A stretch of DNA of 43,732 nt from Candidatus Brocadia sp. WS118 (lineage in GTDB: Bacteria; Planctomycetota; Brocadiia; Brocadiales; Brocadiaceae), in NCBI GenBank assembly GCA_007618135.1, contig PHFX01000013.1:1-43732 (forward strand). Reading direction: 5' to 3'. The position numbers were made by a program, and so were the translations under genes. The notes below the pieces were generated by a model. That model worked only from the letters and a program-made list of their open reading frames with translations, did no database searches and was not told the origin of the DNA. Of the stretch, positions 1 through 28,594 are shown piece after piece (within the stretch, counting starts at the first letter, position 1; each line of letters opens with the position of its first letter).

Positions 1-1785
1 AGGATAACCCGCCACATAAATGATCATGTCACCCGGCTTGGTAATCTTGCCTTCAGCATCTTTTTCTGGTGAAGTCATGCGTAAACACTCGTCAGGTGTT
101 AGTAAAGGACGCTGTGTTTCCTGCATGGTTCGCGTCACGTTGCCGTGCATCACCCCTACCCGCCTACCACTGGTCGTAATCTGCTCCTTGATGACCGTGG
201 TTTGTCCGGTCAGCTTGGATAAATGCTCGGCGGTTTCAATCCGGTTGGGTGGAAAGGCATTTTGAATATGACAATTGGACGTGATCGCCTCATCGTGGCC
301 GTATCCCGTCTCGCGGCTTTTAAGTTGGTTGATATCTTGGCAGATCAAATAGGCTTTAATACCGTAGCCAGCAATAAACGCCAAGGACTCCTGAAAGATT
401 TCCAGTTTACCCAGACTGGGAAATTCATCGAGCATCAACAAAAGCCGGTGCTTATAGTTCGCAACCGGCTGACCATCCTTAAAATCAAGCCTGTCTGCCA
501 GTGTCCGCACAATCATATTCATCATGATGCGCACCAGTGGCCGCAAACGAGTCTTATCGTTAGGCTGTGTCACAATGTATAAACTCACAGGGTTAGCGTT
601 GTGCATCAAATCACGAATTGCAAAATCCGAGCGGCTAATATTCTTTGCAACCAGTGGATCACGGTATAAGGATAGATATGATTTAGCTGTAGATAAAACT
701 GACCCTGCTTCCTCAGAGGGACGATCCAGCATATCTCGTGCGGAGGCGCCTACCACCGGATGGTTTGCTCCATTAACATGCGGATAGGTAGCCATTTCCA
801 TCCATAGTTCACCAATATCCCGTTCAGGATCGGATAGCATTGAATCAACAAGCGGCAATGTGGCCTCAGTCCCTTCAGCACCTTCATTTCCTGATTTATA
901 TAAAACATGCAAAATCACACCAACAAGAAGCGCCTGACTGGTTTTCTGCCAGTGGTCTCTTAGCCCCTTCCCATCTGGATCAACAATTAAAGTAGCGAGA
1001 TTTTGCACATCACCGACTTCAAGCCCATCATGCATCCTGATTTCATCCAACGGATTCCAACAAGCACTCCCTTTGGGTGAGGCAGGATCAAAGCGAATGA
1101 CTTTATTACCGGCATGAACCTTCCGCCAACCGGCTGTTACAGACCATAGTTCGCCTTTCAGATCAGTAATAACCGCACTATGCCCCCATGAAAGCAAGGT
1201 TGGAATAACCAAACCAACACCTTTACCCGACCGAGTCGGCGCATAACATAAAACATGTTCGAGGCCGTTATGTTTAAGGTAATGGGTTTTGCCTTTTTTA
1301 TCCTGCCAGGCACCTACATATACATAATCATTTTGTGGAATCTTTTTCGAGGTTAATCTTTTGAAGAAGGATTGTCTTAAAGGAAGCAGCCTTGCCGCTT
1401 GGATGTCTATTTCATCCGCCCAGCGCGCTGACCCATGTAAACTTGAGTTCGGACGCGATGAATTATCCGCAACCATTTTTACAATCAGTGTCAGAATCAG
1501 CCCCGCTCCTGCAAATAAAACACCCATACTTCCGGATAGCTCAATAATATCCGGATGCTGGCCATACCATTTATTAGCCCACTCAAAAATCGACCAAGGC
1601 GGGTATAACTGGTTAAAGTGAACACCAAGCTGCGGTTGATATTGGAATCTATAGGCAAAATATTGCGTTGCAACCTGAACCCCACCCAACATAAAGAAAA
1701 TCGCCATAATCTGAGTAAGCCTGGTTTTAACCAATCCTTCGTTCTTTATTATAGGATTTCCCGAATTTTGGTTTGAATGGTTCAT
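1..1785 (-). CDS. traG: TraG coupling protein (VirD4 family), C-terminus outside window
   Basis: This is the inner-membrane ATPase that couples the relaxase-DNA complex to the type IV secretion channel. The reading frame stays open from the ATG at 1785 to the window edge, giving about 595 residues; RP4 TraG has about 635. Hydrophobic segments lie near residues 23-35 and 80-98. A Walker A motif (APTRSGKG) is near residue 182 and a Walker B-like motif (LLMLDEFPSLGK) near 450, both typical of VirD4/TraG. The start overlaps the traI stop as ATGA (1782-1785), so the two genes are probably translationally coupled in a traJ-traI-traG operon. The gene is cut only by the window end. Confidence 0.95.
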   Translation of the reverse strand, partial: MNHSNQNSGNPIIKNEGLVKTRLTQIMAIFFMLGGVQVATQYFAYRFQYQPQLGVHFNQLYPPWSIFEWANKWYGQHPDIIELSGSMGVLFAGAGLILTLIVKMVADNSSRPNSSLHGSARWADEIDIQAARLLPLRQSFFKRLTSKKIPQNDYVYVGAWQDKKGKTHYLKHNGLEHVLCYAPTRSGKGVGLVIPTLLSWGHSAVITDLKGELWSVTAGWRKVHAGNKVIRFDPASPKGSACWNPLDEIRMHDGLEVGDVQNLATLIVDPDGKGLRDHWQKTSQALLVGVILHVLYKSGNEGAEGTEATLPLVDSMLSDPERDIGELWMEMATYPHVNGANHPVVGASARDMLDRPSEEAGSVLSTAKSYLSLYRDPLVAKNISRSDFAIRDLMHNANPVSLYIVTQPNDKTRLRPLVRIMMNMIVRTLADRLDFKDGQPVANYKHRLLLMLDEFPSLGKLEIFQESLAFIAGYGIKAYLICQDINQLKSRETGYGHDEAITSNCHIQNAFPPNRIETAEHLSKLTGQTTVIKEQITTSGRRVGVMHGNVTRTMQETQRPLLTPDECLRMTSPEKDAEGKITKPGDMIIYVAGYP

Positions 1786-3440
1786 TTTGATCGTCCTTTT
1801 CGAGGTGATTTGATACTGATTCTGGACACTTTCTGCTGCAATGGATTCTCTTGCTTATCTAAACCATTCGCATCGCGACCCTCTAATCCTTGACCCGTTC
1901 TGTTATTGATTAAATCTAATCGGCGTTGTTCTAATGCTTCATCATCAAATGTAACATCAAGATTTGTATCTACAGCGACTTGAACAACTTTTTCACGGAA
2001 ATCATCCGACCCATTGATAGTCAATTTCTTACCGTACTTAATCTTAGCCTCTTGTAATATTCCTGATATTTTATCTTTGGCCGCACCAGCCATAATGACC
2101 AACCGATTGCCGCCATCACGAATGGCGATTGATCCGATATTACAAATAATCGTGCCCGTTCTAGTAATCGTCTCTATAAAATCCTTATTCTTTAGAGAAT
2201 CGTCATTAGTCTGTGTACCAGAGACATTATTTGTCTGCGCGCTATAATCTTTTCTGGCTCGCAATATGTCCAGTGCTTCCTGATTTCCCTGCCGGGATTC
2301 CTTCACCAGCCAACTCAACCAGTCCATTCTTTTATGCCTTGCTTTTGAGGCTTGATATCCTTCCTTAAAATCTTTATTAATCGCGTCGATCCTTGTTTTC
2401 AATTCACTATAAACAGACGCAGCCATTATTTTTTTGGACAGCCTACCCGCAGTAACATTTTTGATCAGTAGTCGTTTTAACTTGGCTTTGGTTTTGACTG
2501 CTTCTATGGCCTGATTCTTTTTATCACGCAGTTTATTCCATTGGTTTTTTCCCTGTATTGCCGCCTCATTCTGCTCTTTTGTGTATTGCGCATATAGTTT
2601 TGATGTATCAATTTTGTTACGAAGTGGCCTGGGTTCATATTGCTTTGAATATTGTTTTTTTGTTGTTGTATCGTCATCAACCCCGACATAATCACCGAGC
2701 CTCTTAACCAAATTGGCCTTTGATAAGGCTCTGTCAATAGAACTGGCTTTAACACCAATCCCATTACCGGAAACAAATACAAAACCATTACCGCGCTCAC
2801 GCAATTCGAGGCCATGATCCTTTAATACTTGGTGTAATTCAGTCCAGCTTGTCGCAGCTTGAATCTGCGCCAGGCATTCTTGCTGCATCCAACCTATAAG
2901 ACTCTCCGATCCAGCCTTGAACTCAATATTGGACGCCCTACCCTGCGCACCGCGTTTGATTGTTTCGTGATTATCCGGTGTTAATCCGTACTCTTGCTCC
3001 AACTTTTCACAGAGCTCACCAATGACTTTATAGTCATAATGGGGGTTATGGATCGTAAGCCTTTCTGGATGAATTTTGTTGATCGCAATATGCATATGCA
3101 GATGATCAGTGTCATGATGCACCACACTGAGTCGTTGGTGTTCACCAAAGCCTAGGCCATCACAGAGTTGGTCCTCTATTTGCTGCAAAGTAGCTTCGGA
3201 TAGTTCATCATCACGAAAACTAACCACCAGGTGATAGGTTTTGTCAGAAGTCGCGCGTTGATTCATCTGCTGCGTATTAAGCACTTCTGCAACCACACAA
3301 TCCGGACGATCCGAGTAACAATTAACTGCTCGGATTAAGCCGATGCGCTCAGTCTTGTTTTGTGGGTCAACAATATAATTCACCAGTCCGGCAAAGTTGC
3401 TTTTCTTAACTGAATTGATTGGGATGTGTTTGGCTATCAT
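1782..3440 (-). CDS. traI: TraI relaxase (MOBP, RP4 type)
   Basis: This relaxase nicks oriT, stays bound to the 5' end and is exported with the strand. The N-terminus closely resembles RP4 TraI: the catalytic tyrosine is Tyr22 (in NYIVD), and the metal-binding histidine motif HHDTDHLHMHIAINKIHP lies near residues 107-124, preceded by the EHQRLS motif. The protein has 552 residues against about 730 in RP4. The N-terminal relaxase region is conserved, while the C-terminal half is shorter and rich in Lys/Arg/Asn. It lies 28 bp downstream of traJ and overlaps traG by 4 bp. The pairing with the nic site at 4057/4058 is inferred from family and position. Confidence 0.96.
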   Translation of the reverse strand: MIAKHIPINSVKKSNFAGLVNYIVDPQNKTERIGLIRAVNCYSDRPDCVVAEVLNTQQMNQRATSDKTYHLVVSFRDDELSEATLQQIEDQLCDGLGFGEHQRLSVVHHDTDHLHMHIAINKIHPERLTIHNPHYDYKVIGELCEKLEQEYGLTPDNHETIKRGAQGRASNIEFKAGSESLIGWMQQECLAQIQAATSWTELHQVLKDHGLELRERGNGFVFVSGNGIGVKASSIDRALSKANLVKRLGDYVGVDDDTTTKKQYSKQYEPRPLRNKIDTSKLYAQYTKEQNEAAIQGKNQWNKLRDKKNQAIEAVKTKAKLKRLLIKNVTAGRLSKKIMAASVYSELKTRIDAINKDFKEGYQASKARHKRMDWLSWLVKESRQGNQEALDILRARKDYSAQTNNVSGTQTNDDSLKNKDFIETITRTGTIICNIGSIAIRDGGNRLVIMAGAAKDKISGILQEAKIKYGKKLTINGSDDFREKVVQVAVDTNLDVTFDDEALEQRRLDLINNRTGQGLEGRDANGLDKQENPLQQKVSRISIKSPRKGRSK

Positions 3441-12934: not shown

Positions 12935-13315
12935 TTGTACAATAAAATTCTTCTAACAAACATATTACGTCTAATCGAAGAACTGGGCATCAATAAAAAA
13001 GAACTGTCTGAAAGATCAGGTGTATCAACATCTTTTATGTCTGATCTTACGCATGATAAAGCCAATCCATCACTTAGAATCATGGAATCCATTGCCGATG
13101 CTTTGGAAACACCACTTCCAGCACTTCTGGAGCTGACAAATATTGATAAAGAAGTCGTGGATGAACTCATGAAAGGCAAGCCCCAATCAAGATTGCCAGA
13201 AGGGTATGTTCACGTGAGTGCGCTGCTTACTGATTTTCAGGCATATCAGGTATCCCTTTGGAATGAAGAGAATAAGAAGCAGGTATTAACCCGTAAAAAA
13301 AGAAAAGTAAAATAG
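12935..13315 (+). CDS. trbA: TrbA-like transcriptional regulator
   Basis: This 126-residue protein has an N-terminal Xre-type helix-turn-helix: LRLIEELGINKKELSERSGVSTSFMSDLTHDKANPSLRIMESIADAL, about residues 11-57. In RP4, TrbA has the same position directly before trbB and represses the transfer operons. The start appears to be a TTG at 12935, since no ATG precedes the helix-turn-helix in frame. A basic tail (RKKRKVK) ends it. It probably controls the trb operon and perhaps its own promoter. Confidence 0.82.
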   Translation: MYNKILLTNILRLIEELGINKKELSERSGVSTSFMSDLTHDKANPSLRIMESIADALETPLPALLELTNIDKEVVDELMKGKPQSRLPEGYVHVSALLTDFQAYQVSLWNEENKKQVLTRKKRKVK

Positions 13316-13380: not shown

Positions 13381-14343
13381 ATGTCAGATTCTGAAGATAG
13401 TTGCGCGACGCTGAAAGACAGAGCCAAGCGGAAGCTGGATCGAGACATGGGTCCATTACTAATCAATGCGCTGAATGATCCCCAAACGGTTGAATTAATG
13501 GTCAACGCGGATGGTCGCGTCTGGCTTGAAAAACTGGGTAAGACAATGGCGTGTATCGGTGATCTGCGGCCAGCCCAGGCCGAAGCCATTATCAAAACAG
13601 TCGCCGGATACCACAGCAAAGAAGTCACCAAGCTAAAACCCATTATTGAAGGCGAGTTTCCACTCGATGGTTCTCGTTTCGCCGGACAACTTCCTCCCGT
13701 AGTGTCATCCCCAACATTCGCTATCCGCAAAAAAGCAGTTGCGATATTCACGCTAGAACAATACGTTGAGCAAAGAATGATGACGGTTAAGCAATGCCAG
13801 AAAATCAAATCTGCCGTTGCAGAACATCGCAACATTCTTGTTGTGGGTGGCACCGGCTCCGGTAAAACCACACTGGTTAATGCCATCATCAATGAAATGG
13901 TCAACCATGATCCGTCTGAGCGGATTTTCATCATTGAAGATACCGGGGAGATTCAATGTGCTGCAGAGAATTTTGTGCAATACCACACGTCATTAGATGT
14001 TTCGATGACCCAACTACTCAAAACTACGCTGCGCATGCGGCCAGATCGAATATTGGTAGGGGAGGTGAGGGGTGAGGAAGCACTGGATTTACTCGATGCC
14101 TGGAATACTGGCCATGAAGGTGGTGCGGCCACACTACACGCCAATGATGCACTTTCAGGACTAACCAGATTAAATTCATTAATTACACGTAACAAATCAG
14201 CACCTGCGGATATTGATGCACTAATCGGAGAAGTTGTGCATTTGGTCGTGCATATATTGCGCACCCCAACGGGTCGTCGTATTCAGGAAATTATAGAAGT
14301 AGATGGTCACAGGCGGGGTAGTTTCCGCATCAAAAAATTCTAA
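13381..14343 (+). CDS. trbB: TrbB, VirB11-family secretion ATPase
   Basis: This 320-residue hexameric ATPase powers pilus assembly and substrate transfer from the cytoplasmic side of the inner membrane. A Walker A motif ([12 protein letters not shown]) is near residues 154-165. It is followed by an Asp box ([10 protein letters not shown]), a Walker B/His-box region ([26 protein letters not shown]) and ATLHAN. The length equals RP4 TrbB (about 320). It is the first structural gene of the trb operon, 21 bp before trbC. Confidence 0.97.
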
Positions 14344-14363
14344 ATCAAAAAAAGAGGTATTCA

Positions 14364-14798
14364 ATGAAATATGCCATGGCACTGGAAGACTCGAAAGCTT
14401 CTGTTCTCAAAAACTCATTAATCGTATTAATTCCTTTTCTGCTGCTCGTTCCGGAGCTAGCGCTTGCATCAGTGGGTGGCGGCGGTGCATTACCGTATGA
14501 AACTTGGCTTGTGAGTTTGAGAAACTCAGTTACCGGCCCCGTAGCTTTTACGCTCTCTATTGTCGGCATTGTTGTTGCCGGTGGTATTTTGATCTTTGGT
14601 GGCGAACTAAACGCATTTTTCAGAACTTTGATTTTTATTGTTCTGGTCATGGCGCTATTGATCGGCGCACAAAACATCATGACCAATCTGTTTGGCGGTG
14701 CTGTCATTTCATCAAACGGCGAGGTATTACAACTCACGCCGGAATCGACTGACGAATTGATTACGCCAGAAAGTAACACAAGTGAGGGCAGGGGATAG
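14364..14798 (+). CDS. trbC: TrbC, cyclic prepilin (VirB2 family)
   Basis: This 144-residue pilin precursor has a leader ending LALA|S. The core [20 protein letters not shown], then [30 protein letters not shown], is nearly the same as RP4 TrbC. Two membrane segments lie at about residues 60-78 and 86-105. RP4 TrbC is trimmed and made circular by TraF; that protease gene is not in this window and would be expected to the left of traG. The C-terminal tail after about residue 118 is the part expected to be removed. It lies 2 bp before trbD. Confidence 0.95.
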
Positions 14799-14800
14799 CT

Positions 14801-15112
14801 ATGTCCTTGCGCTTAACGCAGATCAGGCAATCCGCGAATCGCCCCAATCTTTTTATGGGTGGTGATAGGGAGCTTGTCATGTTCTCCGGATTGTTGGCTT
14901 TTGCGTTGATATTCAGTGCATTTGAATTCAAGGCATTTGTATTTGGAACCACCTTATGGGTTTTTGCCTTATTTGCATTGCGCCTGATGGCAAAGAATGA
15001 CCCGCTGTTACGCAAGGTGTATTTGCGGCACCGTAAATACAGAACCTATTATCCGGCACGTAGTACGCCTTTCTACGAAAACACCAATACACAAGGGAAA
15101 CAATACCGATGA
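14801..15112 (+). CDS. trbD: TrbD, VirB3-family membrane protein
   Basis: This 103-residue protein has the motif ANRPNLFMGGDRELVMFSGLLAFALIF near its N-terminus. It carries two adjacent hydrophobic segments (about residues 27-60), as in VirB3/TrbD proteins. It is an inner-membrane part of the mating channel linked to TrbE. The start lies 2 bp after trbC, and the stop overlaps the trbE start (ATGA). Confidence 0.93.
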   Translation: MSLRLTQIRQSANRPNLFMGGDRELVMFSGLLAFALIFSAFEFKAFVFGTTLWVFALFALRLMAKNDPLLRKVYLRHRKYRTYYPARSTPFYENTNTQGKQYR

Positions 15113-17643
15113 TAGAGAGCGTAATTTTCTTTTTCTCCGGCAGCGGGATGGTGATGTTATTCATTTTGTTTATGCGGATTAACGTAGTCGGGAGCAAATC
15201 AAAATTAGTTAAGCACCGCTCTAAAGAACCCGGTTTTGTTGACCTGCTTATTTATGCGTCTGTAGTTGATGATGGTGTGATTGTCGGCAAAGATGGGTCG
15301 CTCATGGCGGCGTGGGCCTATCAGGGCGTAGACTCGAATAGCAGCACGGAAGCTGAACGCGACCAAGTATCCTTACAAATTAACCATGCTTTATCACGTA
15401 TGGGTTCCGGTTGGATGATCCATATTGATGCTGTTCGTAAACCCGCCCCCGGTTATTCCGCCAAAGATGATTCGCATTTCCCGGATCCTGTCTCAGCAGC
15501 CATTGATGAAGAGCGGCGTGAATTTTTTGAGCGTGTTGGCACGTTATACGAAAGTAATTATGTGATAACAGCCACCTATTTACCGCCGCTACTGGCGCAA
15601 CAAAAGTTTGTTGAACTGATGTTTGATGACGAGGGTGTGCCGGTTGATTCCAAAACCAGAACAATAGCTTTGCTTAACCATTTTAAGCGCGAATGCGCGA
15701 ATATTGAATCTCACCTATCCAGTGTTTTCAGAATGAAGCGGTTGAAGGGTAAAACGATAACCAAGGAAGATAATTCGTCTGTTAACTATGATGCTTTTCT
15801 ACGCTGGATACAATTTTGCATCAGTGGCCTTGATCATCCAGTGATTCTACCCAAAAATCCAATTTATCTGGATGCGCTATTAAGTGGTCAGGAGTTTTGG
15901 GGTGGGGTAGTACCTAAAATCGGACAGAATTTCATACAAGTCGTATCCATTGAGGGTTTTCCGCTTGCATCTTCGCCAGGGCTAATTAACTCGCTAGCTG
16001 ATTTGCCTTGTCTATACCGTTGGTCAACGCGCTTCATTTTCATGGATACACATGAGGCGGTCGGCCATTTGGAGAAGTTCAGTAAAAAATGGAAACAAAA
16101 GATTCGCAGCTTCTTTGACCAAGTATTTAATTCGCATAGCAGTAATGTTGATCAAAACGCCATAAATATGGTGAGTGACGCACAAGCTGCAATTGCTGAG
16201 ACAAATAGCGGCGAAGTGGCACAAGGTTACTATACCAGTGTGGTTGTGTTGATGAGTGAGAGCCGAGGGGATTTAGAGGCTTCCGCACGACAAGTGGCCA
16301 AAGCAATTAATCATTTGGGATTTGCCGCTCGAATTGAAACAATCAACACGATAGATGCGTACTTGGGCAGTTTGCCTGGACATGGTGTTGAGAATGTACG
16401 CCGCCCGCTATTAAACACAATGAATCTGGCTGATTTGATGCCGAGCAATACAGTATGGCCGGGAAAGAATGAAGCGCCTTGTCCGATGTATCCGCCCATG
16501 GCTCCGCCACTCATGCATTGTACTACCCAAGGGGCTACGCCGTTTCGGTTAAACCTGCATGTACGGGATTTGGGTCATACCTTCATGTTTGGCCCAACCG
16601 GCGCGGGTAAATCAACGCATTTGGCCCTCATAGCTGCGCAACTGCGGCGCTACGAGGGCATGTCCATCTATTGTTTTGATAAGGGCATGTCAATGTATCC
16701 GCTGACCAAGGCAGTTGGCGGAAAGCATTTTTCCGTTGCCGCAGATGATGACTCTCTGGCGTTTTGCCCCCTTCAATTTCTGGAAACAAAAGGTGATCGT
16801 GCTTGGGCGCTGGAATGGATTAGCACCATCATCGAACTGAACAACAGTACGATCACACCAGCGCAACGTAATGAAATCAGTAACGCCATCACCAACATGC
16901 ACAGAAGTGGTGCAAAAACCTTATCTGAGTTTGTGGTAACGATACAAGATGATTCCATCCGCGATGTACTGGCGCAGTACACGATTGATGGCATGATGGG
17001 TCATTTGCTGGATGCGGAAAATGACGGTTTGACCCTGTCGTCATTCACAACGTTCGAGATTGAGGAACTAATGAACTTGGGTCAGAAATATGCATTGCCA
17101 ACCCTTTTGTATCTGTTTAGACGCATTGAACGTGACTTACACGGCCAACCGGCGGCAATCATACTGGATGAAGCTTGGCTTATGTTGGGTCATGCTGCGT
17201 TTCGTGAAAAAATCCGTGAATGGCTAAAAGTCATGCGTAAAGCGAATTGTTTCGTGCTGATGGCAACGCAAAGCTTATCCGATGCAGCCAACAGCGGCAT
17301 TCTAGATGTGATTGTCGAATCCACCGCAACGAAGATATTCCTACCGAACGTACACGCGCGTGATCAGGATACTGCGGCGTTATATCGACGCATGGGACTG
17401 AATTCCCGCCAGATTGGAATCATTGCATCGGCGGTTGCTAAGCGCCAATATTATTATGTATCAGAAGATGGCAGAAGGCTCTACGACTTGGCATTAGGCA
17501 AACTAGCTTTAGCCTTTGTCGGCTCATCAGATAAAGAATCAATTGCCACAATCAAGCAGTTGGTCGCAAAACATGGCGACAAATGGGTCAAGGAATGGCT
17601 GGATATTAAAGGACTGAAATTAAATAATGAGGCCATGTCATGA
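15109..17643 (+). CDS. trbE: TrbE, VirB4-family ATPase
   Basis: This 844-residue ATPase energises channel assembly and transfer at the inner membrane. An N-terminal hydrophobic segment (residues 1-22) is followed by the CagE/TrbE domain (ASVVDDGVIVGKDGSLMAAW). A Walker A motif (MFGPTGAGKSTH) lies near residue 493 and a Walker B motif (AAIILDEAWLML) near 683, followed by MATQSLSDA. Length and motifs match RP4 TrbE (about 850). The stop overlaps trbF by 4 bp. Confidence 0.97.
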   Translation: MIESVIFFFSGSGMVMLFILFMRINVVGSKSKLVKHRSKEPGFVDLLIYASVVDDGVIVGKDGSLMAAWAYQGVDSNSSTEAERDQVSLQINHALSRMGSGWMIHIDAVRKPAPGYSAKDDSHFPDPVSAAIDEERREFFERVGTLYESNYVITATYLPPLLAQQKFVELMFDDEGVPVDSKTRTIALLNHFKRECANIESHLSSVFRMKRLKGKTITKEDNSSVNYDAFLRWIQFCISGLDHPVILPKNPIYLDALLSGQEFWGGVVPKIGQNFIQVVSIEGFPLASSPGLINSLADLPCLYRWSTRFIFMDTHEAVGHLEKFSKKWKQKIRSFFDQVFNSHSSNVDQNAINMVSDAQAAIAETNSGEVAQGYYTSVVVLMSESRGDLEASARQVAKAINHLGFAARIETINTIDAYLGSLPGHGVENVRRPLLNTMNLADLMPSNTVWPGKNEAPCPMYPPMAPPLMHCTTQGATPFRLNLHVRDLGHTFMFGPTGAGKSTHLALIAAQLRRYEGMSIYCFDKGMSMYPLTKAVGGKHFSVAADDDSLAFCPLQFLETKGDRAWALEWISTIIELNNSTITPAQRNEISNAITNMHRSGAKTLSEFVVTIQDDSIRDVLAQYTIDGMMGHLLDAENDGLTLSSFTTFEIEELMNLGQKYALPTLLYLFRRIERDLHGQPAAIILDEAWLMLGHAAFREKIREWLKVMRKANCFVLMATQSLSDAANSGILDVIVESTATKIFLPNVHARDQDTAALYRRMGLNSRQIGIIASAVAKRQYYYVSEDGRRLYDLALGKLALAFVGSSDKESIATIKQLVAKHGDKWVKEWLDIKGLKLNNEAMS

Positions 17644-18395
17644 AGTCAATACAAGCACTACTTAATCTTAATCCTAAAAATGCACGATTAGCTGATGAAT
17701 TCATAGAGGGTGGCCGCCGCGAAGGGGAAAATGAGAATCCTTATTTATCGGGGCGGCGCTCGTGGAATGATCACATGGAATCTGTGGCTGCATCGCGCAA
17801 TATGTGGCAGATACTGGCAATACTTTCACTGATGATCACACTAGCAGCCGTTGGGGGGATTATCCATATCGGCAGCCAGTCGAAGTTCATTCCCTACGTG
17901 GTACGAATTGATAACCTGGGGGAGGCGATAGCCGTGTCACGGGCAGACATGGCGGCACCGGCTGATCCTCGGGTTATTCACGCATCGGTCGCTTCGTTTA
18001 TTAATGATTTGCGGATGGTAACACCTGACATTGCCCTACAGCGCCGCGCAATTTTTCGGGCATACGCCATGCTCTCATCGGATGATCCGGCAACCGCCAA
18101 AACCAACGTTTGGCTAAACGGTACGGATACGAGCAGCCCATTCAAACGCGCCGCGAATGAGACAGTGAATATTGAGATTGTCTCGGTTATTCCGCAAAGC
18201 CCTGAAACCTGGCAGGTGATCTGGAAAGAATTAGTTTATGACCGTCAAGGGCATCCCAAAGAACCCCCCTTCATAATGCGCGCGCTTTTGACTATCTATA
18301 GCATTGATTCAACTGCAAATACAACTGAGGAACAAATTCGTAATAACCCGCTCGGCATTTATGTGCGGGATTATTCTTGGGCAAAGCAAATATAA
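17640..18395 (+). CDS. trbF: TrbF, VirB8-family channel protein
   Basis: This 251-residue bitopic inner-membrane protein has a cytoplasmic N-terminus (GRRSWNDHMESVAASRNMWQ), a membrane segment near residues 58-80, and a periplasmic VirB8-like domain. That domain begins YVVRIDNLGEAIAVSRADMA and ends NPLGIYVRDYSWAKQ. It serves as an assembly factor between TrbE and the periplasmic core. It overlaps trbE by 4 bp and is followed by trbG after 12 bp. Confidence 0.95.
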   Translation: MKSIQALLNLNPKNARLADEFIEGGRREGENENPYLSGRRSWNDHMESVAASRNMWQILAILSLMITLAAVGGIIHIGSQSKFIPYVVRIDNLGEAIAVSRADMAAPADPRVIHASVASFINDLRMVTPDIALQRRAIFRAYAMLSSDDPATAKTNVWLNGTDTSSPFKRAANETVNIEIVSVIPQSPETWQVIWKELVYDRQGHPKEPPFIMRALLTIYSIDSTANTTEEQIRNNPLGIYVRDYSWAKQI

Positions 18396-18407
18396 AAAGG
18401 AATGATA

Positions 18408-19319
18408 ATGAAATACGCTCGATATGCACTTATTACTCTCTATATTAGTTTGCTTCCTTCCGTTGTTTTAGCGGTAGGCAGTAATTTTCCTGATTCCTAT
18501 TTTGCAAAAGACAATCCTCAACTAACACCACAGGAAAGGGCTTCAATTGAAATAGCTAAGAAATGGCAACAATCCAGCGCCACGGGAATCAAGCCGGTCG
18601 CTGGACCCGATGGCACCATCCGGTTTTTGTTTGGTGCGCAACAACCCAGCATTGTCTGCGCGGTGTTGCAGGTTTGCGATATTCAATTACAACCCGGCGA
18701 ACAAGTGAATTCTATTCACTTGGGCGATCAAGTGCGTTGGCAAGTCGAACCGGCAATAACAGGCCGTGCCGCGCTCGAAGTACAACATTTGATTGTGAAA
18801 CCCCTCGATGTCGGGCTGGAAACCTCACTGGTTGTGACTACCGACCGGCGCACTTATCACATGCGGCTCAGATCCCATCGGCAGGAATTTATGCCGCGCG
18901 TCGCCTTTATTTATCCCGAAGATGCACAGGCAAAATGGGATGCCGTCAAAATGAGAGAAAACCACGCAATGGAGATTAAATCATCTCGAACAATACCCTC
19001 GACGGGAGAGTATTTAGGCGATCTGGATTTTTTGTATAGCGTGTCTGGATCCGCAGCCTGGAAGCCACTGCGCGTCTATAACGATGGCAAGAAAACAATT
19101 ATTCAGATGCCGACAACCTTTTCACAAAAAGAAGCGCCGGTTTTGATGGTGGTGCGTAAAGAAGGTGGCTTGTTCTCACAAGACACAGAGGTAATGGTTA
19201 ATTACCGCTTGCAGCATGACCGGTACATTGTGGATGCGGTTTTTGATAAAGCGTATCTGATTGCGGGTGTAGGCAGCGATCAAAGCCGGGTTACGATCAC
19301 CAAAACACAAGGAAATTAA
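18408..19319 (+). CDS. trbG: TrbG, VirB9-family core-complex protein
   Basis: This protein of about 303 residues is periplasmic or outer-membrane and forms the core channel with TrbH and TrbI. A signal peptide ends near VVLAVG. It is followed by VirB9-like beta segments (TIRFLFGAQQPSIVCAVLQVCDIQL, then SLVVTTDRRTYHMRL near 140-155) and the C-terminal domain (YNDGKKTIIQMPTTF, then DAVFDKAYLIAG). I chose the ATG at 18408 because AAAAAGG lies 7 bp upstream; an ATG at 18402 sits directly on that site. Confidence 0.95.
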   Translation: MKYARYALITLYISLLPSVVLAVGSNFPDSYFAKDNPQLTPQERASIEIAKKWQQSSATGIKPVAGPDGTIRFLFGAQQPSIVCAVLQVCDIQLQPGEQVNSIHLGDQVRWQVEPAITGRAALEVQHLIVKPLDVGLETSLVVTTDRRTYHMRLRSHRQEFMPRVAFIYPEDAQAKWDAVKMRENHAMEIKSSRTIPSTGEYLGDLDFLYSVSGSAAWKPLRVYNDGKKTIIQMPTTFSQKEAPVLMVVRKEGGLFSQDTEVMVNYRLQHDRYIVDAVFDKAYLIAGVGSDQSRVTITKTQGN

Positions 19320-19320
19320 T

Positions 19321-19758
19321 ATGTTCCGGTTATCAATGCTTGTTTTGATATTCATTCTGACTGGTTGTGCAACAACACAATTTGGCAATTTTGTGGCGCA
19401 TAACGATGAGGCTCACAACAAAAGTATAGCCAGTGATGTGACAGGGCAACTAATACAGCTTTATCCACCGGCCAGCACGCAATTTAATATGCAACATCCA
19501 ACGGTAGATTCATTTGGTGATGCTTTAGTAGATAATTTGCGAGCAGGCGGTTATGCCATCCATGAACATAAAAAATCAAACCTTAACAAGTCAACGGATA
19601 CACCTACATCGGATGGTATGACGCTTGGATATGTTTTTGACCAAATGGACGGCTTATACCGTCTCACAGTCTTTGTTGATCAGCATGTTCTAACTCGCGC
19701 GTATATTTTCAATGAGAGCACAATAAACCCGGCAGGTTACTGGGTTCGTAAGGAGTAA
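19321..19758 (+). CDS. trbH: TrbH, VirB7-like lipoprotein
   Basis: This 145-residue protein has a lipoprotein signal, MFRLSMLVLIFILTGCATT, with the lipobox cysteine at residue 16. The mature part shows LYPPASTQFNMQH and DALVDNLRAGGYAI, as in RP4 TrbH. It anchors the core complex in the outer membrane, replacing VirB7. Its start is 1 bp after the trbG stop, with AGGAAA upstream. Confidence 0.92.
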   Translation: MFRLSMLVLIFILTGCATTQFGNFVAHNDEAHNKSIASDVTGQLIQLYPPASTQFNMQHPTVDSFGDALVDNLRAGGYAIHEHKKSNLNKSTDTPTSDGMTLGYVFDQMDGLYRLTVFVDQHVLTRAYIFNESTINPAGYWVRKE

Positions 19759-19761
19759 GTT

Positions 19762-21129
19762 ATGAGTATGTCTGCTGACGCATCTCCTGAAACCATATCG
19801 TCACCTGGCGTGCGCCGGGTCAACAACCTTCCGATTTATATTGTTGTCGGAATCATGCTGGTTTTTTTATTAATCATGATGGTGGTGGCAATAAATCGCT
19901 CAGAACCACAAGACTCAAGCAATGCCGAAGAAAGCAAAAAAGCTGGATCAAGCAATATGCTGGCCGCGTTTATCACGGGCGAATACAAGGATGGCTTCAT
20001 TGAGCCGGAAAGACCGGCACCCACAGAACCTGCGCTAGACTTGCCGCCAGAAATCATGATTGCACGCCCCAGTAATCTTGATTTACCGCCATTACCACCA
20101 GTTAATAGTCTCGAAAGAGATCCCGCTTCAGAGCATATTCGTATGATGAAGTTGCAACTATTTGAGCAAGCGGTAAAAGCAAAAACCAATGTGGCTATGG
20201 AAGCACCAAGAAGTGCTGGTTCATCTTCACCTCCATCCGCCAACTATGCTCCTTCTGGCGTAACACCCAGCAGGAAAGAAGCATTGGCACGAATAGCAGC
20301 AGTCAGACAACAAGTCGATGCACAAGCAAAAGATGATCCTGCTGCTGCCTATCTTGCGCGATTACAACAAATCAAGGACAGTGGGCTTATCGGTGGTCGC
20401 GATGGTTTGGATGATTCAGCGCCAGAATTAATTGATCCGGATTCAAAAAGGATTGCTAACAATTATGCAAACTTTGATGCAACAGGGCAGGGGAGTCGTT
20501 GGAAACTGGACAGCAAGCCAGCAGCACCCGAAACACCGTATAGCCTACTTACTGGATTTGTAATACCGGCTGTGCTTATCTCCGGTATTAATTCAGAACT
20601 GCCCGGCCAAATCATGGCGCAAGTCAGTCAGGACATTTATGACACACCCGTAGGCCGTTGGCGCTTGATACCTCAAGGCGCTCGTCTGGTCGGGAGTTAT
20701 TCCAGTGATGTTGCCTATGGTCAATCGCGTGTATTGGTTGCATGGCAACGGATTATTTTTCCTGACGGCAAGACAATGGATATTGGTGCGATGCCGGGAG
20801 CTGATGGTATCGGTCAAGCGGGATTCAAAGATCAAGTCAATAATCATTATTTGCGAATATTCGGATCGGCATTATTGATGTCAGCCGTGATAGCAGGAGC
20901 CACGTACAGTCAGCGTGATGCTGGGGGAGGGGGCGTATTCGGGCGGCAAAATGCCGGTAGCATATTGAGTCAGTCGCTAGGCCAGCAACTGGGGCAAGCG
21001 ACCACGCGACTAATGATGAAAAATCTGAATATTGCGCCAACACTAGAGATACGCCCAGGTTTTAGATTCAATGTCATTGTTACCAAAGACATGGTCTTTT
21101 CTAAACCGTATCAATCATTTGATTATTAA
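19762..21129 (+). CDS. trbI: TrbI, VirB10-family core-complex protein
   Basis: This 455-residue protein spans inner membrane to outer membrane. A membrane segment lies at about residues 25-45 (IYIVVGIMLVFLLIMMVVAI). It is followed by a Pro-rich linker (APTEPALDLPPEIM, then LPPLPPVN) and the VirB10 C-terminal domain (YSLLTGFVIPAVLISGINSELPG, then TPVGRWRLIPQGARLVGSY, then ILEIRPG-like LEIRPGFRFNVIV). An AAGGAG site is 7 bp from the start. The length is close to RP4 TrbI (about 463). Confidence 0.96.
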   Translation: MSMSADASPETISSPGVRRVNNLPIYIVVGIMLVFLLIMMVVAINRSEPQDSSNAEESKKAGSSNMLAAFITGEYKDGFIEPERPAPTEPALDLPPEIMIARPSNLDLPPLPPVNSLERDPASEHIRMMKLQLFEQAVKAKTNVAMEAPRSAGSSSPPSANYAPSGVTPSRKEALARIAAVRQQVDAQAKDDPAAAYLARLQQIKDSGLIGGRDGLDDSAPELIDPDSKRIANNYANFDATGQGSRWKLDSKPAAPETPYSLLTGFVIPAVLISGINSELPGQIMAQVSQDIYDTPVGRWRLIPQGARLVGSYSSDVAYGQSRVLVAWQRIIFPDGKTMDIGAMPGADGIGQAGFKDQVNNHYLRIFGSALLMSAVIAGATYSQRDAGGGGVFGRQNAGSILSQSLGQQLGQATTRLMMKNLNIAPTLEIRPGFRFNVIVTKDMVFSKPYQSFDY

Positions 21130-21147
21130 CGAAAGGAGTGATCTAAC

Positions 21148-21945
21148 ATGATAAACAGTAAAAATCTAACCGCCCTGTGGATAGCAATCCTGCTCGTAAT
21201 CTGGAGTGCCGGTCATTCATCAAACATTAGAGCAGGGGGTATGGCTGTTATTGATATGGCGAATATTAAACAGACTTCGATTACCGCTTATGAGAATGTA
21301 GAGATGCGACTCAAACAGATTGATCAGTATCGGACGCAATTGCAGCAATATGAAAACATGCTCCGCAACACGGTAGCGCCAGCAGCTTATGTCTGGGCAA
21401 AAGCGGAATATACGATGAATCGATTAGTTCAAGCATCCAATACACTTAAATATTATCAAGACCAGGGCGGCGTAGAGAACTATTTAAACAGGTACAGGAA
21501 CGCCAGTTATTACAGTGGTTCTCCTTGTTTTAATTTGGGCGGTAACTGCACAGATACAGCCTGGGATTTGATAAAACAAGGGCAGAACACCAGCACAAAC
21601 GCACAAAAAAGCGCCAATGATGCGTCATTACGGGGCTTGGAAATACATCAAGATGGGGCGCCCCTCGATGCCGCGCATTTGCAATTGCTGCAATCACGGG
21701 CAGAAACAGCAGGAGGGCAGTTGGAGGCGATTCAGTACGCCAATCAACTGGCTGCTTACCAGTCAAACCAGCTTTTACAATTGCGAACCATGATGATTGC
21801 ACAATTTAACGCAGAGAATGCCAGAAATCAGGCGCTTGTAGACAGAGAAGCGATAAATCAAGCTGCACATCAGGCCGCAACCAAACGGCTTAGCCCGGTT
21901 AACTTTCCAGCGGCAAAGATCTGGAATGTCAGAGACGCATTTTAA
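21148..21945 (+). CDS. trbJ: TrbJ, VirB5-like pilus-associated protein
   Basis: This 265-residue exported protein has a signal peptide (LTALWIAILLVIWSAGHSS) and then GGMAVIDMANIKQTSITAYENV. Long helices follow (QIDQYRTQLQQYENMLRNTV), as in TrbJ/VirB5 proteins. Two cysteines (CFNLGGNC) could form a disulfide. The C-terminal half contains QLEAIQYANQLAAYQSNQLLQLR, the conserved TrbJ segment. VirB5-type proteins sit at the pilus tip or act in mating contact. AAAGGAG precedes the start. Confidence 0.94.
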   Translation: MINSKNLTALWIAILLVIWSAGHSSNIRAGGMAVIDMANIKQTSITAYENVEMRLKQIDQYRTQLQQYENMLRNTVAPAAYVWAKAEYTMNRLVQASNTLKYYQDQGGVENYLNRYRNASYYSGSPCFNLGGNCTDTAWDLIKQGQNTSTNAQKSANDASLRGLEIHQDGAPLDAAHLQLLQSRAETAGGQLEAIQYANQLAAYQSNQLLQLRTMMIAQFNAENARNQALVDREAINQAAHQAATKRLSPVNFPAAKIWNVRDAF

Positions 21946-21966: not shown

Positions 21967-22167
21967 ATGAAAACCAATCAAACAATCATTATTGCGATGA
22001 CTGCGGTATTACTTTTAACTTTGGCTGGATGTCAGGAACCCAAGGGATATTTGGAGCTTAAAGAGCCAATGAAGCCCGTGAGTGAAATGACTCCTGCTAT
22101 GAATTGGACTGTGAATGGCCCAGTTGATGCATCAGGTAATCCTATCGTACTTGAAAGAGTAGAGTAG
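21967..22167 (+). CDS. trbK: TrbK, probable entry-exclusion lipoprotein
   Basis: This 66-residue protein has a lipoprotein signal with lipobox LAGC (Cys22) and a short mature region (CQEPKGYLELKEPMKPVSEM). In RP4, trbK at the same site encodes the 69-residue lipoprotein that blocks entry of a second related plasmid. Sequence conservation among such proteins is low, so the call rests on location, size and lipobox. It lies between trbJ and trbL. Confidence 0.82.
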   Translation: MKTNQTIIIAMTAVLLLTLAGCQEPKGYLELKEPMKPVSEMTPAMNWTVNGPVDASGNPIVLERVE

Positions 22168-22202: not shown

Positions 22203-23345
22203 GTGAATAAATCAAATCTATGTCTTTTGTTTAGTGCCTTGGGTCTGATGCTGCTCTCAACTGCTGCATTTGCTGAGTTGGCTTATATTGATCCAGTAAC
22301 CAATCAAAGTATATTTGATCAGGTTGCGCAAAAGTTTTTAATTAAAGCCAAAGGCTGGCACGCCATTTTAGAGGGCGCAGCTATACGTTTGTTTTGGACG
22401 CTGGTGTTAATTTCCATGGTGTGGACGTTTGGCATGATGGTATTACGCAAAGCGGACATTGGTGATTTTTTTGCTGAATTCACCCGTTTCATCATATTCA
22501 CAGGTTTTTTCTTCTGGTTATTAACCAACGCTGTTTCAGGACAAAACATTGCCGGATCAATTATCGAATCCATGCAGATGTTGGGCAATAAGGCTTCGGG
22601 AGGGACTGGTACGGGTCACGGTAATATTATGAACATAGCCTTCCAGATATGGGAAAAATTCCTCCAGAATGCATCTGTCTGGAACCCCATTGACAGCCTT
22701 ATTGCCTTCGTCCTTTCACTCATTATTGTAATCATTCTGACGGTCGTCGCAGTCAACATGTTATTGCTGCTGATTTCGTCATGGGTGCTTCTGTATGCGG
22801 GCATTTTCTTTTTGGGTTTCGGCGGGGCGCGTTGGACAACTGATTTCGCGATCAACTATTACAAGACAGTATTAGGCATTGGTATTCAGCTGTTGGCCAT
22901 GACGTTGATTGTTGGGATTGGTGGCGATTTTCTGACCAATTATTATGGAAAAATGAGTAAAACCATCATGAACTTTGAAGAATTGGGAGTCATGTTAATT
23001 TTTGCTGTTGCCTTTTATTTCCTGGTTTCAAAGCTACCGCCCATGCTGGCTGGAATTATTACGGGTAGTAGTATTAATGCGGGAGGGGTCGGAAACTATA
23101 GCGGTGGTCAGGTAGTGGGTGCTGCAGCAGCCACGATGGCTGTTGCCAGTATGGGCGCGACTTATTTAGCGGAAGGCGCGCGTCAAATGGCTGCTGCTTC
23201 ATCAACTGCTGCCGATGCGGCAAAGTCTATCAATACATCCGGCGGAACACCATTTGCCACACCGAATCCGGATGGAAGCGCACAAACTGTATCCCATGAT
23301 CCGTGGGAGGTGCCTGATGATCATCTTACAAGGAAACCAAAGTGA
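22203..23345 (+). CDS. trbL: TrbL, VirB6-family inner-membrane channel protein
   Basis: This 380-residue polytopic protein starts at a GTG preceded by GAGGA. A signal-like segment ends near AFAELAYID. At least five hydrophobic segments follow between residues 55 and 275, for example LFWTLVLISMVWTFGMMVL, FVLSLIIVIILTVVAVNMLLLLISSWVLLYAGIFFLGFGG and MLIFAVAFYFLVSKLPPML. RWTTDF and the Gly/Ala-rich C-terminal region match TrbL. RP4 TrbL has over 500 residues, so this copy has a shorter C-terminal tail. Confidence 0.94.
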   Translation: MNKSNLCLLFSALGLMLLSTAAFAELAYIDPVTNQSIFDQVAQKFLIKAKGWHAILEGAAIRLFWTLVLISMVWTFGMMVLRKADIGDFFAEFTRFIIFTGFFFWLLTNAVSGQNIAGSIIESMQMLGNKASGGTGTGHGNIMNIAFQIWEKFLQNASVWNPIDSLIAFVLSLIIVIILTVVAVNMLLLLISSWVLLYAGIFFLGFGGARWTTDFAINYYKTVLGIGIQLLAMTLIVGIGGDFLTNYYGKMSKTIMNFEELGVMLIFAVAFYFLVSKLPPMLAGIITGSSINAGGVGNYSGGQVVGAAAATMAVASMGATYLAEGARQMAAASSTAADAAKSINTSGGTPFATPNPDGSAQTVSHDPWEVPDDHLTRKPK

Positions 23346-23371
23346 TGAATAAACTTAATGAGGAGGCTGTT

Positions 23372-24094
23372 ATGGTTAACAAATCAATTCTTTCTGCCAT
23401 CGTGCTTGTATTTATACTGGGTGGCTGTGCCAGTATGAGCGAATCACAGCAAAGCACAGCAAAAGGCACGGCAATGGGTACTGGCGCGGGTGCTGCGGTT
23501 GGTGCCATTATCGGTGCCATAGCAGGAGACCCGGCTCTTGGTGCAGGAATTGGTGCGGGTGTCGGCGCAGTGGGTGGCTATATCTGGTCTAATCGGATGG
23601 AAGAACAAAAAAAGAAAATGGAAGTGGCTACCGAAGGCACAAAAGTTTCTGTTACTCAAACAGCCGACAATCAATTAAAACTCAATGTTCCCAGTGATAT
23701 TTCTTTTGATACCGGGCAATCCACCATAAAACCTGAAATGCATCCAGTACTTGATAGCCTGGCCGCAGGACTTAAGAGTAATTCAAACTCCCAGGTGACC
23801 ATTATTGGTTATACCGATGATACCGGCAATGATTCCATTAATAACCCCTTATCGGTGAACCGTGCTGCCAGCTCACGTGCGTATCTGGTAAGTCAAGGTA
23901 TTGCATCCAATCGTATCAGTATTGATGGTCGGGGTGCATCAGAACCGGTAGCAGCCAACACTTCTCCTGAAAATAGGGCAAAAAATCGTCGTGTAGAGAT
24001 TTTCGTGAAAGAGCCGCAACCACAACAACAGCGACAACAAGAACTGCCGCAGCACCAAGATCAGCAACAATATATTCAACAACCGGCATATTAA
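23372..24094 (+). CDS. OmpA-family lipoprotein with glycine-zipper domain
   Basis: This 240-residue protein has a lipobox LGGC (Cys19). A glycine-zipper hairpin follows (GTAMGTGAGAAVGAIIGAIAG, repeated to about residue 70). An OmpA C-terminal peptidoglycan-binding domain (FDTGQSTIKPEMHPVLDSLA, then RAASSRAYLVSQGIASNRI and ASPENRAKNRRVEIFV-like motifs) spans about 110-215. The tail is Gln/Pro-rich. It is the YiaD type. I chose the ATG at 23372 after GAGGAGG; an earlier ATG at 23342 overlaps trbL. RP4 has trbM here, so this lipoprotein is an unusual member of the operon and may brace the channel against peptidoglycan. Confidence 0.9.
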   Translation: MVNKSILSAIVLVFILGGCASMSESQQSTAKGTAMGTGAGAAVGAIIGAIAGDPALGAGIGAGVGAVGGYIWSNRMEEQKKKMEVATEGTKVSVTQTADNQLKLNVPSDISFDTGQSTIKPEMHPVLDSLAAGLKSNSNSQVTIIGYTDDTGNDSINNPLSVNRAASSRAYLVSQGIASNRISIDGRGASEPVAANTSPENRAKNRRVEIFVKEPQPQQQRQQELPQHQDQQQYIQQPAY

Positions 24095-24100
24095 TCCATA

Positions 24101-24541
24101 ATGGATTTGCCACCCGATCAGCAAGAAAGAATCGTGTGCTCAATCACAGCGGCCATAAAGTATGAAATACCGGCCAATATACTTTTGGCCGTTGCGGAAA
24201 AAGAAGGGGGCAAAGCGGGGCAATGGGTGAGTAACCGCAATGGAACGCATGATGTGGGTTCCATGCAATTCAATACGGCCTACCTGGGCGATTTAGCCCG
24301 ATACGGGATCACCACCAATGATGTCGCACAACCCGGTTGCTATCCCTATGATCTGGCAGCTTGGCGAATACGTCTGCATATCAAACAAGATAAAGGCGAT
24401 TTGTGGACAAAAGCGGCCAATTATCATTCGCGTACTCCAAAAGTTAATGCAAAGTATCGGGCTGACTTGATGGCTAAAGCCGCTAAATGGGCGGATTGGC
24501 TGGAAAATCGTTTCATGACAGCGGACAACAAGAAAAAATAA
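24101..24541 (+). CDS. trbN: TrbN-like lytic transglycosylase
   Basis: This 146-residue protein has a lysozyme-like fold pattern, IPANILLAVAEKEGGKAGQWVSNRNGTHDVGSMQFNT, with the probable catalytic glutamate at residue 35. The closing part contains WTKAANYHSRTPKVNAKYRADLM. It would cut peptidoglycan locally to let the channel assemble, like RP4 TrbN (about 211 residues). No signal peptide is seen, and the start is 6 bp after the OmpA gene. It is the last gene of the trb transcript; trbM, trbO and trbP are not found. Confidence 0.88.
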   Translation: MDLPPDQQERIVCSITAAIKYEIPANILLAVAEKEGGKAGQWVSNRNGTHDVGSMQFNTAYLGDLARYGITTNDVAQPGCYPYDLAAWRIRLHIKQDKGDLWTKAANYHSRTPKVNAKYRADLMAKAAKWADWLENRFMTADNKKK

Positions 24542-24666: not shown

Positions 24667-25011
24667 ATGAAACAGAGAATGATCGTAATGAATGGGTTTC
24701 GAATTTTGCAAAGCCACAATGGCCAGGGATGGGAAACTGTGGGCACAATAAAGAAGGTTGAAAAGGGTATTGTGGCGGGTGTGTATAACATATTTTTGTC
24801 AAAAGAAGCTGAAGCAAACAATACCGTTTATGAAGGAATCATTCTTTATATAGATAAAGAAAAAGAAATTGTTTATCAAAAGGTAGATAAAGAATTTATC
24901 ACACACAAACTGAAACCATTTAAAACCAAACCAATCATTGGCAAGAATGTTTCTATTCGGTACGACAATAACCAATTAAATCTAACCTTAGAAGATTCCT
25001 TACAGGAGTAA
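24667..25011 (+). CDS. kfrB: KfrB-like protein, copy 2
   Basis: This 114-residue protein, [15 protein letters not shown], then [35 protein letters not shown], is of the KfrB family and a diverged paralogue of the protein encoded at 9479-9829. Both share MNG near residue 8, a Gly-x-Tyr-Asn turn, IDK(E/K) and VYQK. AGGA lies directly before the ATG. It is followed after 5 bp by a small gene and then by the TraC-like gene, so these three form a probable operon. Confidence 0.75.
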
Positions 25012-28267: not shown

Positions 28268-28594
28268 CGTCTTCCTCTCAGTAGTAACGTTAATTGTACG
28301 TCACCCTTGGAAGACTATTTTTCGGGGGAAGCTCATTTTTGCTTATTATTTCAAAGTGGAAACATATACAGTAAACAGCTCTGTAATAACTACAGGCTCT
28401 TGTGCGAAATTTATATGATCACTATCAACTATTGGTTTTATATGCTTAAATCATCCTTGCAATAATAATTGAGATTATTAGTTTTATTGTAAATTTTTAT
28501 TATTCTATTCTTAGAGGACTTGGGAAAGTTTAAATACTCTTATTTTTTATTGAAATTGCTATTAAATATTTCATCAATAATGAAGGAAAATGTT
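28268..28594. other. non-coding interval upstream of the secreted repeat protein
   Basis: I see no gene here. The left part may carry the terminal repeat of the broken IS3 element. The right part is AT-rich and would hold the promoter of the next gene, but I cannot point to one clear box pair. Confidence 0.35.

Follow-up and report, generated by a model that had tools for sequence, protein, structure and literature searches.

An OmpA-type lipoprotein gene inside the trb operon of plasmids from ammonia-oxidising bacteria: a possible optional cell-wall tether of the mating channel

How the outer membrane and the wall of a donor cell hold conjugation channels is, to our knowledge, poorly known beyond a few model machines, and we know of no established role for either TrbM or Upf30.5. 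PromA plasmids (pMNCE066, pEN1, pSFA231) encode TraQ, a lipobox-bearing OmpA-family protein that lies in a conjugation block and adjoins TrbM (there named TraR). On pMNCE066 (L179:6662-7910) traQ stands directly before traR, whose product matches TrbM at 170.4 bits in Pfam, and the same traQ-traR order is given in a gene table of PMC4290620. Both pMNCE066 and pEN1 are typed MPF_T, and the pEN1 record (MN536506) annotates its TraQ copy as "Type IV secretion system putative outer membrane lipoprotein"; on pES657-44, the ORF after the OmpA gene is TrbM-like by eye and has no Pfam match. On R751, the genes for TrbL, TrbM, an SLT protein, a small ORF product and TraX are followed, in the same orientation, by that of the OmpA-family protein Upf30.5 (WP_010890142). 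Matches to Upf30.5 occur in 217 plasmid records, of which 205 are typed conjugative, TraQ-type proteins being counted in. Further afield, the Legionella Dot/Icm cap contains two OmpA folds near the outer membrane, Dis1 (Lpg0657) and DotK, in which no peptidoglycan was seen and several key binding residues are missing, and the authors, in the available text, think that these proteins do not bind peptidoglycan (PMC7511231, PMC8486379). The available portion of a nomenclature review of type IV secretion systems (PMC12857230) mentions neither OmpA nor TrbM nor TrbN, and OmpA likewise goes unmentioned in the available portion of a paper on a Neisseria plasmid (PMC2848598). Titles and opening lines of the literature on OmpA, YiaD, TraQ or Upf30.5 in conjugation and on Nitrosomonas trb plasmids (a scope with most subscription papers outside it) do not describe the gene that is our subject here.

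The window, i.e., the whole stretch of 43,732 nucleotides that was analysed, is a contig filed under Candidatus Brocadia sp. WS118. It opens with a type IV coupling protein (TraG/VirD4) domain at 4..1425 on the reverse strand (PF02534, 458.8 bits, positions 1-435 of 468), followed on the same strand by a MOBP-type relaxase at 1782..3440 (PF03432, 127.6 bits, plus TraI_middle). On the forward strand, an HTH regulator occupies the trbA position (12935..13315; Pfam HTH_26/HTH_3), trbB-trbJ span 13381..21945 (TrbC, TrbD, TrbF, TrbG and TrbJ being named by position against annotated loci), and a small TrbK-like lipoprotein of 66 aa is encoded at 21967..22167. The latter is named by its position and lipobox, its Pfam LPAM_1 score of 14.5 bits lying below the cut-off of 20, and it is placed as, and by eye resembles, a 67-aa ORF of NZ_CP133084. 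Next come trbL (22203..23345; Pfam TrbL 120.7 bits), the lipoprotein gene, which belongs to the same operon, and trbN (24101..24541), an SLT-type lytic transglycosylase gene (Pfam SLT 26.5 bits; NCBIfam TrbN NF010463 299.7 bits against a cut-off of 246), all on the forward strand. Given trbB-trbL, the TrbK-like lipoprotein, the relaxase and the coupling-protein domain, we take the window for most of a self-transmissible element, one in which no overlap between the two contig ends was found. Downstream of trbN, also on the forward strand, lies a KfrB-domain gene (24667..25011; PF18790, 53 bits), and a KfrB match in the same place is seen in three related loci (L159, L162, L167). Further on (28520-29836), a 438-aa protein contains repeated "...RINPKTGQRVILS.F..." units and has a signal-like stretch near its start, and it has no Pfam match.

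The lipoprotein gene (23372..24094, forward strand) is an ompA-type gene whose ORF of 240 aa was confirmed on the sequence. Its ATG at 23372 lies 5 bases past a ribosome-binding site, GAGGAGG (23360..23366, forward strand), that was read off the sequence, and an alternative longer frame starting at 23342 (250 aa) runs over the end of trbL. The gene is co-directional with both neighbors, with the trbL stop 26 nt upstream and the trbN start 6 nt downstream. Its product carries an N-terminal signal with the lipobox LGGC, in which Cys19 is followed by Ala at +2, a pattern that points to lipidation and to sorting to the outer membrane; behind it come a glycine zipper (~35-79), an OmpA domain (112-206) and a Gln-rich tail. 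Four Pfam families match above their gathering scores (OmpA 76.6 bits, Gly-zipper_Omp 46, YMGG 33.6 and Gly-zipper_OmpA 31.8), there is no match to Pfam TrbM (PF07424), and the NCBIfam model YiaD_Gzip_OmpA (NF053611) scores 228.1 bits over residues 9-212 against a cut-off of 175. The succession of lipobox, zipper and OmpA domain, with Gly18-Cys19 invariant in 22/22 aligned proteins, likewise assigns it to the YiaD family. The ORF, Pfam, NCBIfam and the neighboring genes thus bear out the initial annotation, which had proposed a glycine-zipper plus OmpA-domain lipoprotein between trbL and trbN.

That annotation also proposed anchoring to peptidoglycan, and the Pfam and NCBIfam matches and an intact Asp/Arg pair agree with an OmpA-type lipoprotein that has peptidoglycan-binding residues. 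Asp149 and Arg164 are invariant in all 22 aligned proteins, a mixed set of trb-linked and chromosome-like members. Their spacing of 15 equals that of D271 and R286 of Acinetobacter baumannii OmpA, residues reported in the available text of PMC6572160 to bind diaminopimelate; the equivalence is one of spacing and motif rather than of a residue-level alignment to A. baumannii OmpA. As both residues are equally invariant in chromosome-like YiaD, they speak for a tether as such but, taken alone, do not tie it to the mating channel. An OmpA-like fold is indicated by Pfam and by a structure model of the lipoprotein, in which the mean pLDDT is 64.3, residues 1-68 and 219-237 fall below 50, and block means within the OmpA part are mostly 70-93, so that confidence in the model is confined to that part and does not extend to the zipper. 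The modelled domain matches PA0833, YiaD, 3td5 (an OmpA domain with a DAP-containing peptide), the T6SS wall anchor 4b62 and chains of the Dot/Icm outer-membrane cap.

How regularly the gene accompanies trb operons was surveyed from two sides. A TrbL search of genome contigs found 188 relatives, and the analysis took in the top 80 (L011-L090), i.e., a close set of 45 loci (L011-L055), nearly all labelled Nitrosomonas, and a distant set of 35 (L056-L090). An OmpA homologue follows trbL in nine of the 45 close loci (L011, L012, L013, L014, L015, L017, L029, L030 and L036), where the contigs of L011 and L029 stop before trbN and that of L011 ends inside ompA. With trbN present and ompA absent in 33 of these 45 TrbL-selected loci (three more, L016, L046 and L047, are unjudgeable), the gene is not a feature of all P-type (trb) type IV secretion systems. 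None of the 35 distant loci, 16 of which have a trbN match in view, shows an OmpA match between trbL and trbN; in 11 of these 16, two of which were read in detail, a distant OmpA match lies downstream of trbN, placed as is Upf30.5 in pYKCG107. From the other side, one search with the OmpA protein in the Nitrosomonas ureae family matched 78 of 125 genomes at E <= 1e-40, mostly at 54-64% identity. Thirty-three stretches taken from the OmpA searches of this family (two of which, L122 and L133, duplicate contigs already counted) added nine trb loci that carry the gene (L121, L159, L161-L164 and L166-L168), a biased sample, as these were found through OmpA itself. The carriers thus amount to 19 loci with the window included; in all of them the gene follows trbL or trbL-trbM, with trbN in view behind it in 16, and without the window the figures are 18 and 15. 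Such a position is not due to chance, and the prospect that the gene would be absent in all relatives does not hold.

A wide spread on known plasmids was considered and rejected, as matches were confined to 806 of 72,556 PLSDB records, with identities under 60% throughout and less than 80% of the query covered in every case; the 50 of the 806 that were listed lie at 37-43% identity, in a collection from which records very near the window's genome are possibly missing. NZ_CP133084, the nearest trb plasmid among these matches, has trbL-trbN without ompA. Among the carriers, L167 and L168 are two trb operons with ompA in a single chromosome-sized contig of 3.7 Mb (genome G178), and in L168 trbE-trbI are split into several frames while the trbJ, trbL, trbM, ompA and trbN matches are still long. 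Genome G121 holds three similar trbM-ompA-trbN segments (L162, L163, L164), each of which matches the later part of trbL only.

Eleven of the 19 carriers (L017, L029, L036, L121, L161-L164 and L166-L168) have a short TrbM-like ORF in front of ompA, recognised by phmmer likeness to the L017 ORF and ~96-98 aa long where read. Four short ORFs were tested against Pfam TrbM (gathering score 21 bits), and all reach or exceed that score, i.e., L017 (28.6), L036 (21.0) and, from short-TrbM loci that have no ompA, L018 (27.7) and L031 (23.6). The initial annotation had set the lipoprotein where RP4 has trbM. This is right as to position, judged on the trbL-trbM-trbN order of R751, which we take to be an IncP relative of RP4, but the gene is no replacement of TrbM by origin, given that 11 of 19 carriers have both; it was rather added beside trbM, and the older order was likely trbL-trbM(short)-ompA-trbN. 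Eight loci, the window among them, have ompA without TrbM after trbL, and no TrbM was found among the ORFs of the window (best E about 1). Among the 45 close loci, trbL-trbN alone is the commonest state (28/45) and five have short trbM without ompA. Four of the latter five (L031, L032, L033, L035) hold a DUF433/DUF5615 pair in the interval, presumably PIN-like and resembling a toxin-antitoxin pair, and L036 has both this pair and ompA, so that in five Nitrosomonas loci the pair lies between short trbM (or ompA) and trbN (11422-12032 in L031). Within the trb operon, the trbM/ompA-trbN interval is a site that takes insertions.

The short TrbM (~96-99 aa) aligns to the first part only of the Pfam TrbM profile (L017:11171-11458, L018:9123-9410, L036:5970-6263, L186:32233-32529) and is found in Nitrosomonas-type trb loci and in the IncP-1 omicron plasmid pYKBG036, where it lies between trbL and the SLT gene (Pfam 27 bits). 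The available text of PMC9499019 lists pYKBG036 with an accessory "ompA"; we rejected this as the same case, as the OmpA-family gene there is not part of the trb operon but lies ~4 kb beyond trbN on the other strand, with a zipper match below the cut-off.

The descent of the protein was followed in a tree of 41 rows, consisting of 19 chromosome-like contexts, 20 others and two long-branched outgroup rows; chromosome-like here denotes a fetched flank with no trb gene and with neighboring ORFs presumably of housekeeping type. The 19 chromosome-like YiaD proteins split from the other 20 with 100/100 support, and 17 of these 20 are trb-linked. Recent capture of a chromosomal Nitrosomonas yiaD is thereby rejected, and an older capture from some YiaD source is likely. 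The remaining three (L132:8032-8736, L160:4839-5546 and L165:1039-1692) have no trb gene in their fetched flanks, yet their proteins group with the trb-linked lineage, so that either these copies left the operon or they gave rise to the operon version; either way, the protein can exist without the machine. In a TrbL tree of 53 rows (TrbL was trimmed to the first matched domain, so some rows may be shortened), a clade of 11 rows (96/92) has ten loci with ompA and one cut, a clade of nine (98/99) has five with and four without, and a 30-row group of weaker support (88/75) has 29 without and one cut. The four loci without ompA inside the nine-row clade indicate that the gene is easily lost or replaced. 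Where it is kept, pairwise OmpA distances, some rows of which are fragments, correlate with those of TrbJ (r 0.99, 11 loci), TrbN (0.86, 16 loci) and TrbL (0.80, 16 loci), with 0 of 5000 permutations in each case, and TrbL against TrbN gives 0.755 for comparison. Values of dN/dS are 0.04-0.37 over the 13 listed pairs, near those of the trb neighbors, and the lipoprotein gene is under purifying selection. Place and orientation are kept over divergence down to ~63% identity. Co-divergence with the Trb proteins and low dN/dS designate it as a maintained part of these operons, at times gained, lost or replaced.

The host of the contig deserves a separate word. Bacterial AmoA (PF02461) found no match in the assembly from which the window comes, the same search finding it in the genomes of Nitrosomonas ureae Nm13 and Nitrosomonas sp. 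Nm84, both of which have the lipoprotein gene; in two further assemblies, G098 (filed under Nitrosomonas) and G104 (filed under Bacteroidetes), it is missing as well, so this absence proves little. The TrbL of the window has no match in 97 genomes related to its assembly. Lack of AmoA, 97 related genomes without this TrbL and plasmid relatives in Nitrosomonas together suggest possible mis-binning or a new acquisition; the contig may be either, and the finding on the lipoprotein is unaffected.

We consider the chances about even that the lipoprotein serves the mating channel as a dedicated, optional tether between outer membrane and peptidoglycan, accessory to the trb (P-type, MPF_T) system. 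Its lipidated N-terminus and glycine zipper would be seated at the inner face of the outer membrane, and the C-terminal OmpA domain is predicted to hold the diaminopimelate stem peptide of peptidoglycan. As its gene accompanies that of the wall-cutting TrbN and has stayed with the operon, its most likely task is to steady the channel at the wall opening: it would fasten outer membrane and wall to each other around the place that TrbN opens, and this fastening could in turn steady the outer-membrane core complex TrbG/TrbH/TrbI in mating. Both peptidoglycan binding and contact with the Trb machine we infer from the retained residues and the company of the gene. Probably optional is the right qualification, as most relatives carry a like operon without the lipoprotein. 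The earlier idea of a possible extra part of this secretion system therefore survives in part: the fixed operon place, co-inheritance with trb and purifying selection speak for an accessory component, but it is neither constant (33 of 45 have trbN without ompA) nor wholly new in kind.

The main rival is that the gene is a passenger ("moron") in a position that tolerates insertions. Its product would then be an envelope lipoprotein of host type that benefits the cell carrying it, in envelope stability or under stress, and has no share in DNA transfer; we regard this as a serious though lesser possibility. It would account for the interval that also accepts the unrelated DUF433/DUF5615 pair in five loci, for the absence of ompA from most relatives, for the three relatives outside trb and for the many family genomes that hold another YiaD ~54-64% identical (context viewed for 19), and the OmpA-family gene of pYKBG036, with its weak zipper match, likewise sits outside a trb operon. 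A mere passenger fits less well with a place and orientation preserved down to ~63% identity, with a divergence that tracks TrbJ, TrbL and TrbN, and with the OmpA-family proteins found near TrbM/TrbN in other conjugative plasmids. Improbable to our mind is a recipient-side role in surface exclusion or mating aggregation, like that of F TraT, which is an outer-membrane lipoprotein. An outer-membrane-type lipoprotein with a glycine-zipper segment, encoded in a mating operon, could suit such a task, but the TrbK-like lipoprotein, the usual candidate for entry exclusion, is already at its usual place (21967), and the OmpA domain, which should face the periplasm, retains its wall-binding residues. 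That the lipoprotein assumed the periplasmic task of a lost TrbM in the window's subgroup, as the eight TrbM-less carriers and a TrbM-free window might hint, is very improbable, with both genes in 11 of 19 carriers, neither in 28 of 45 relatives and no sequence relation between the two proteins. Those 28 relatives suggest that neither TrbM nor ompA may be indispensable, whereas the available text of the Neisseria plasmid paper calls trbK the sole non-essential gene of the trb operon, which argues against treating TrbM as optional (PMC2848598).

Returning to the tether, we also entertain, as a tentative and distinctly less than even proposition, that MPF_T systems repeatedly recruit an OmpA-family protein near TrbM/TrbN as an outer membrane-wall module, with the OmpA protein as tether, TrbM as a small periplasmic helper and TrbN as wall-cutter, through separate recruitments of a host-type YiaD (Nitrosomonas plasmids), TraQ (PromA) and Upf30.5 (IncP-1). 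Were this so, TrbM and Upf30.5 would gain a testable job. A putative wall-tether gene that is present in some trb operons and missing in close relatives offers a natural experiment, and the finding directs attention to the OmpA-family genes of broad-host-range plasmids (TraQ, Upf30.5), whose deletion is feasible with ordinary laboratory systems.

Set against the known systems, the lipoprotein did not originate as a substitute for TrbM, nor is it a part of a categorically new kind. With the YiaD family (NF053611; E. coli YiaD, PDB 2k1s; P. aeruginosa PA0833, 6jfw) it shares the domain order and the OmpA-domain fold, and it differs in being encoded in a trb operon, in forming a lineage apart from the chromosome-like YiaD of the Nitrosomonas family and in its Gln-rich tail. 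The Asp/Arg pair is kept in both the YiaD of Nitrosomonas plasmids and TraQ, but no glycine zipper is detected in TraQ, the gene order is OmpA-TrbM instead of TrbM-OmpA-TrbN, and no trbL or trbN adjoins it in the stretch seen. Upf30.5 has lost the binding Asp, which is replaced by Ser, has neither lipobox Cys nor glycine zipper, and sits further downstream. Dis1 and DotK belong to a type IVB system, unlike the window protein, which retains Asp and Arg; a 249-aa OmpA-family chain of the Dot/Icm entries, which we take for Dis1, aligns with the window protein including the lipobox/zipper region (E 0.006). An OmpA-family protein near conjugation genes thus has precedent in PromA TraQ, in R751 and in Legionella Dot/Icm and is not new in kind; what this plasmid family of ammonia-oxidising bacteria adds is an outer-membrane protein inside the transfer cluster that probably holds the cell wall, an unusual variant of a half-known thing.
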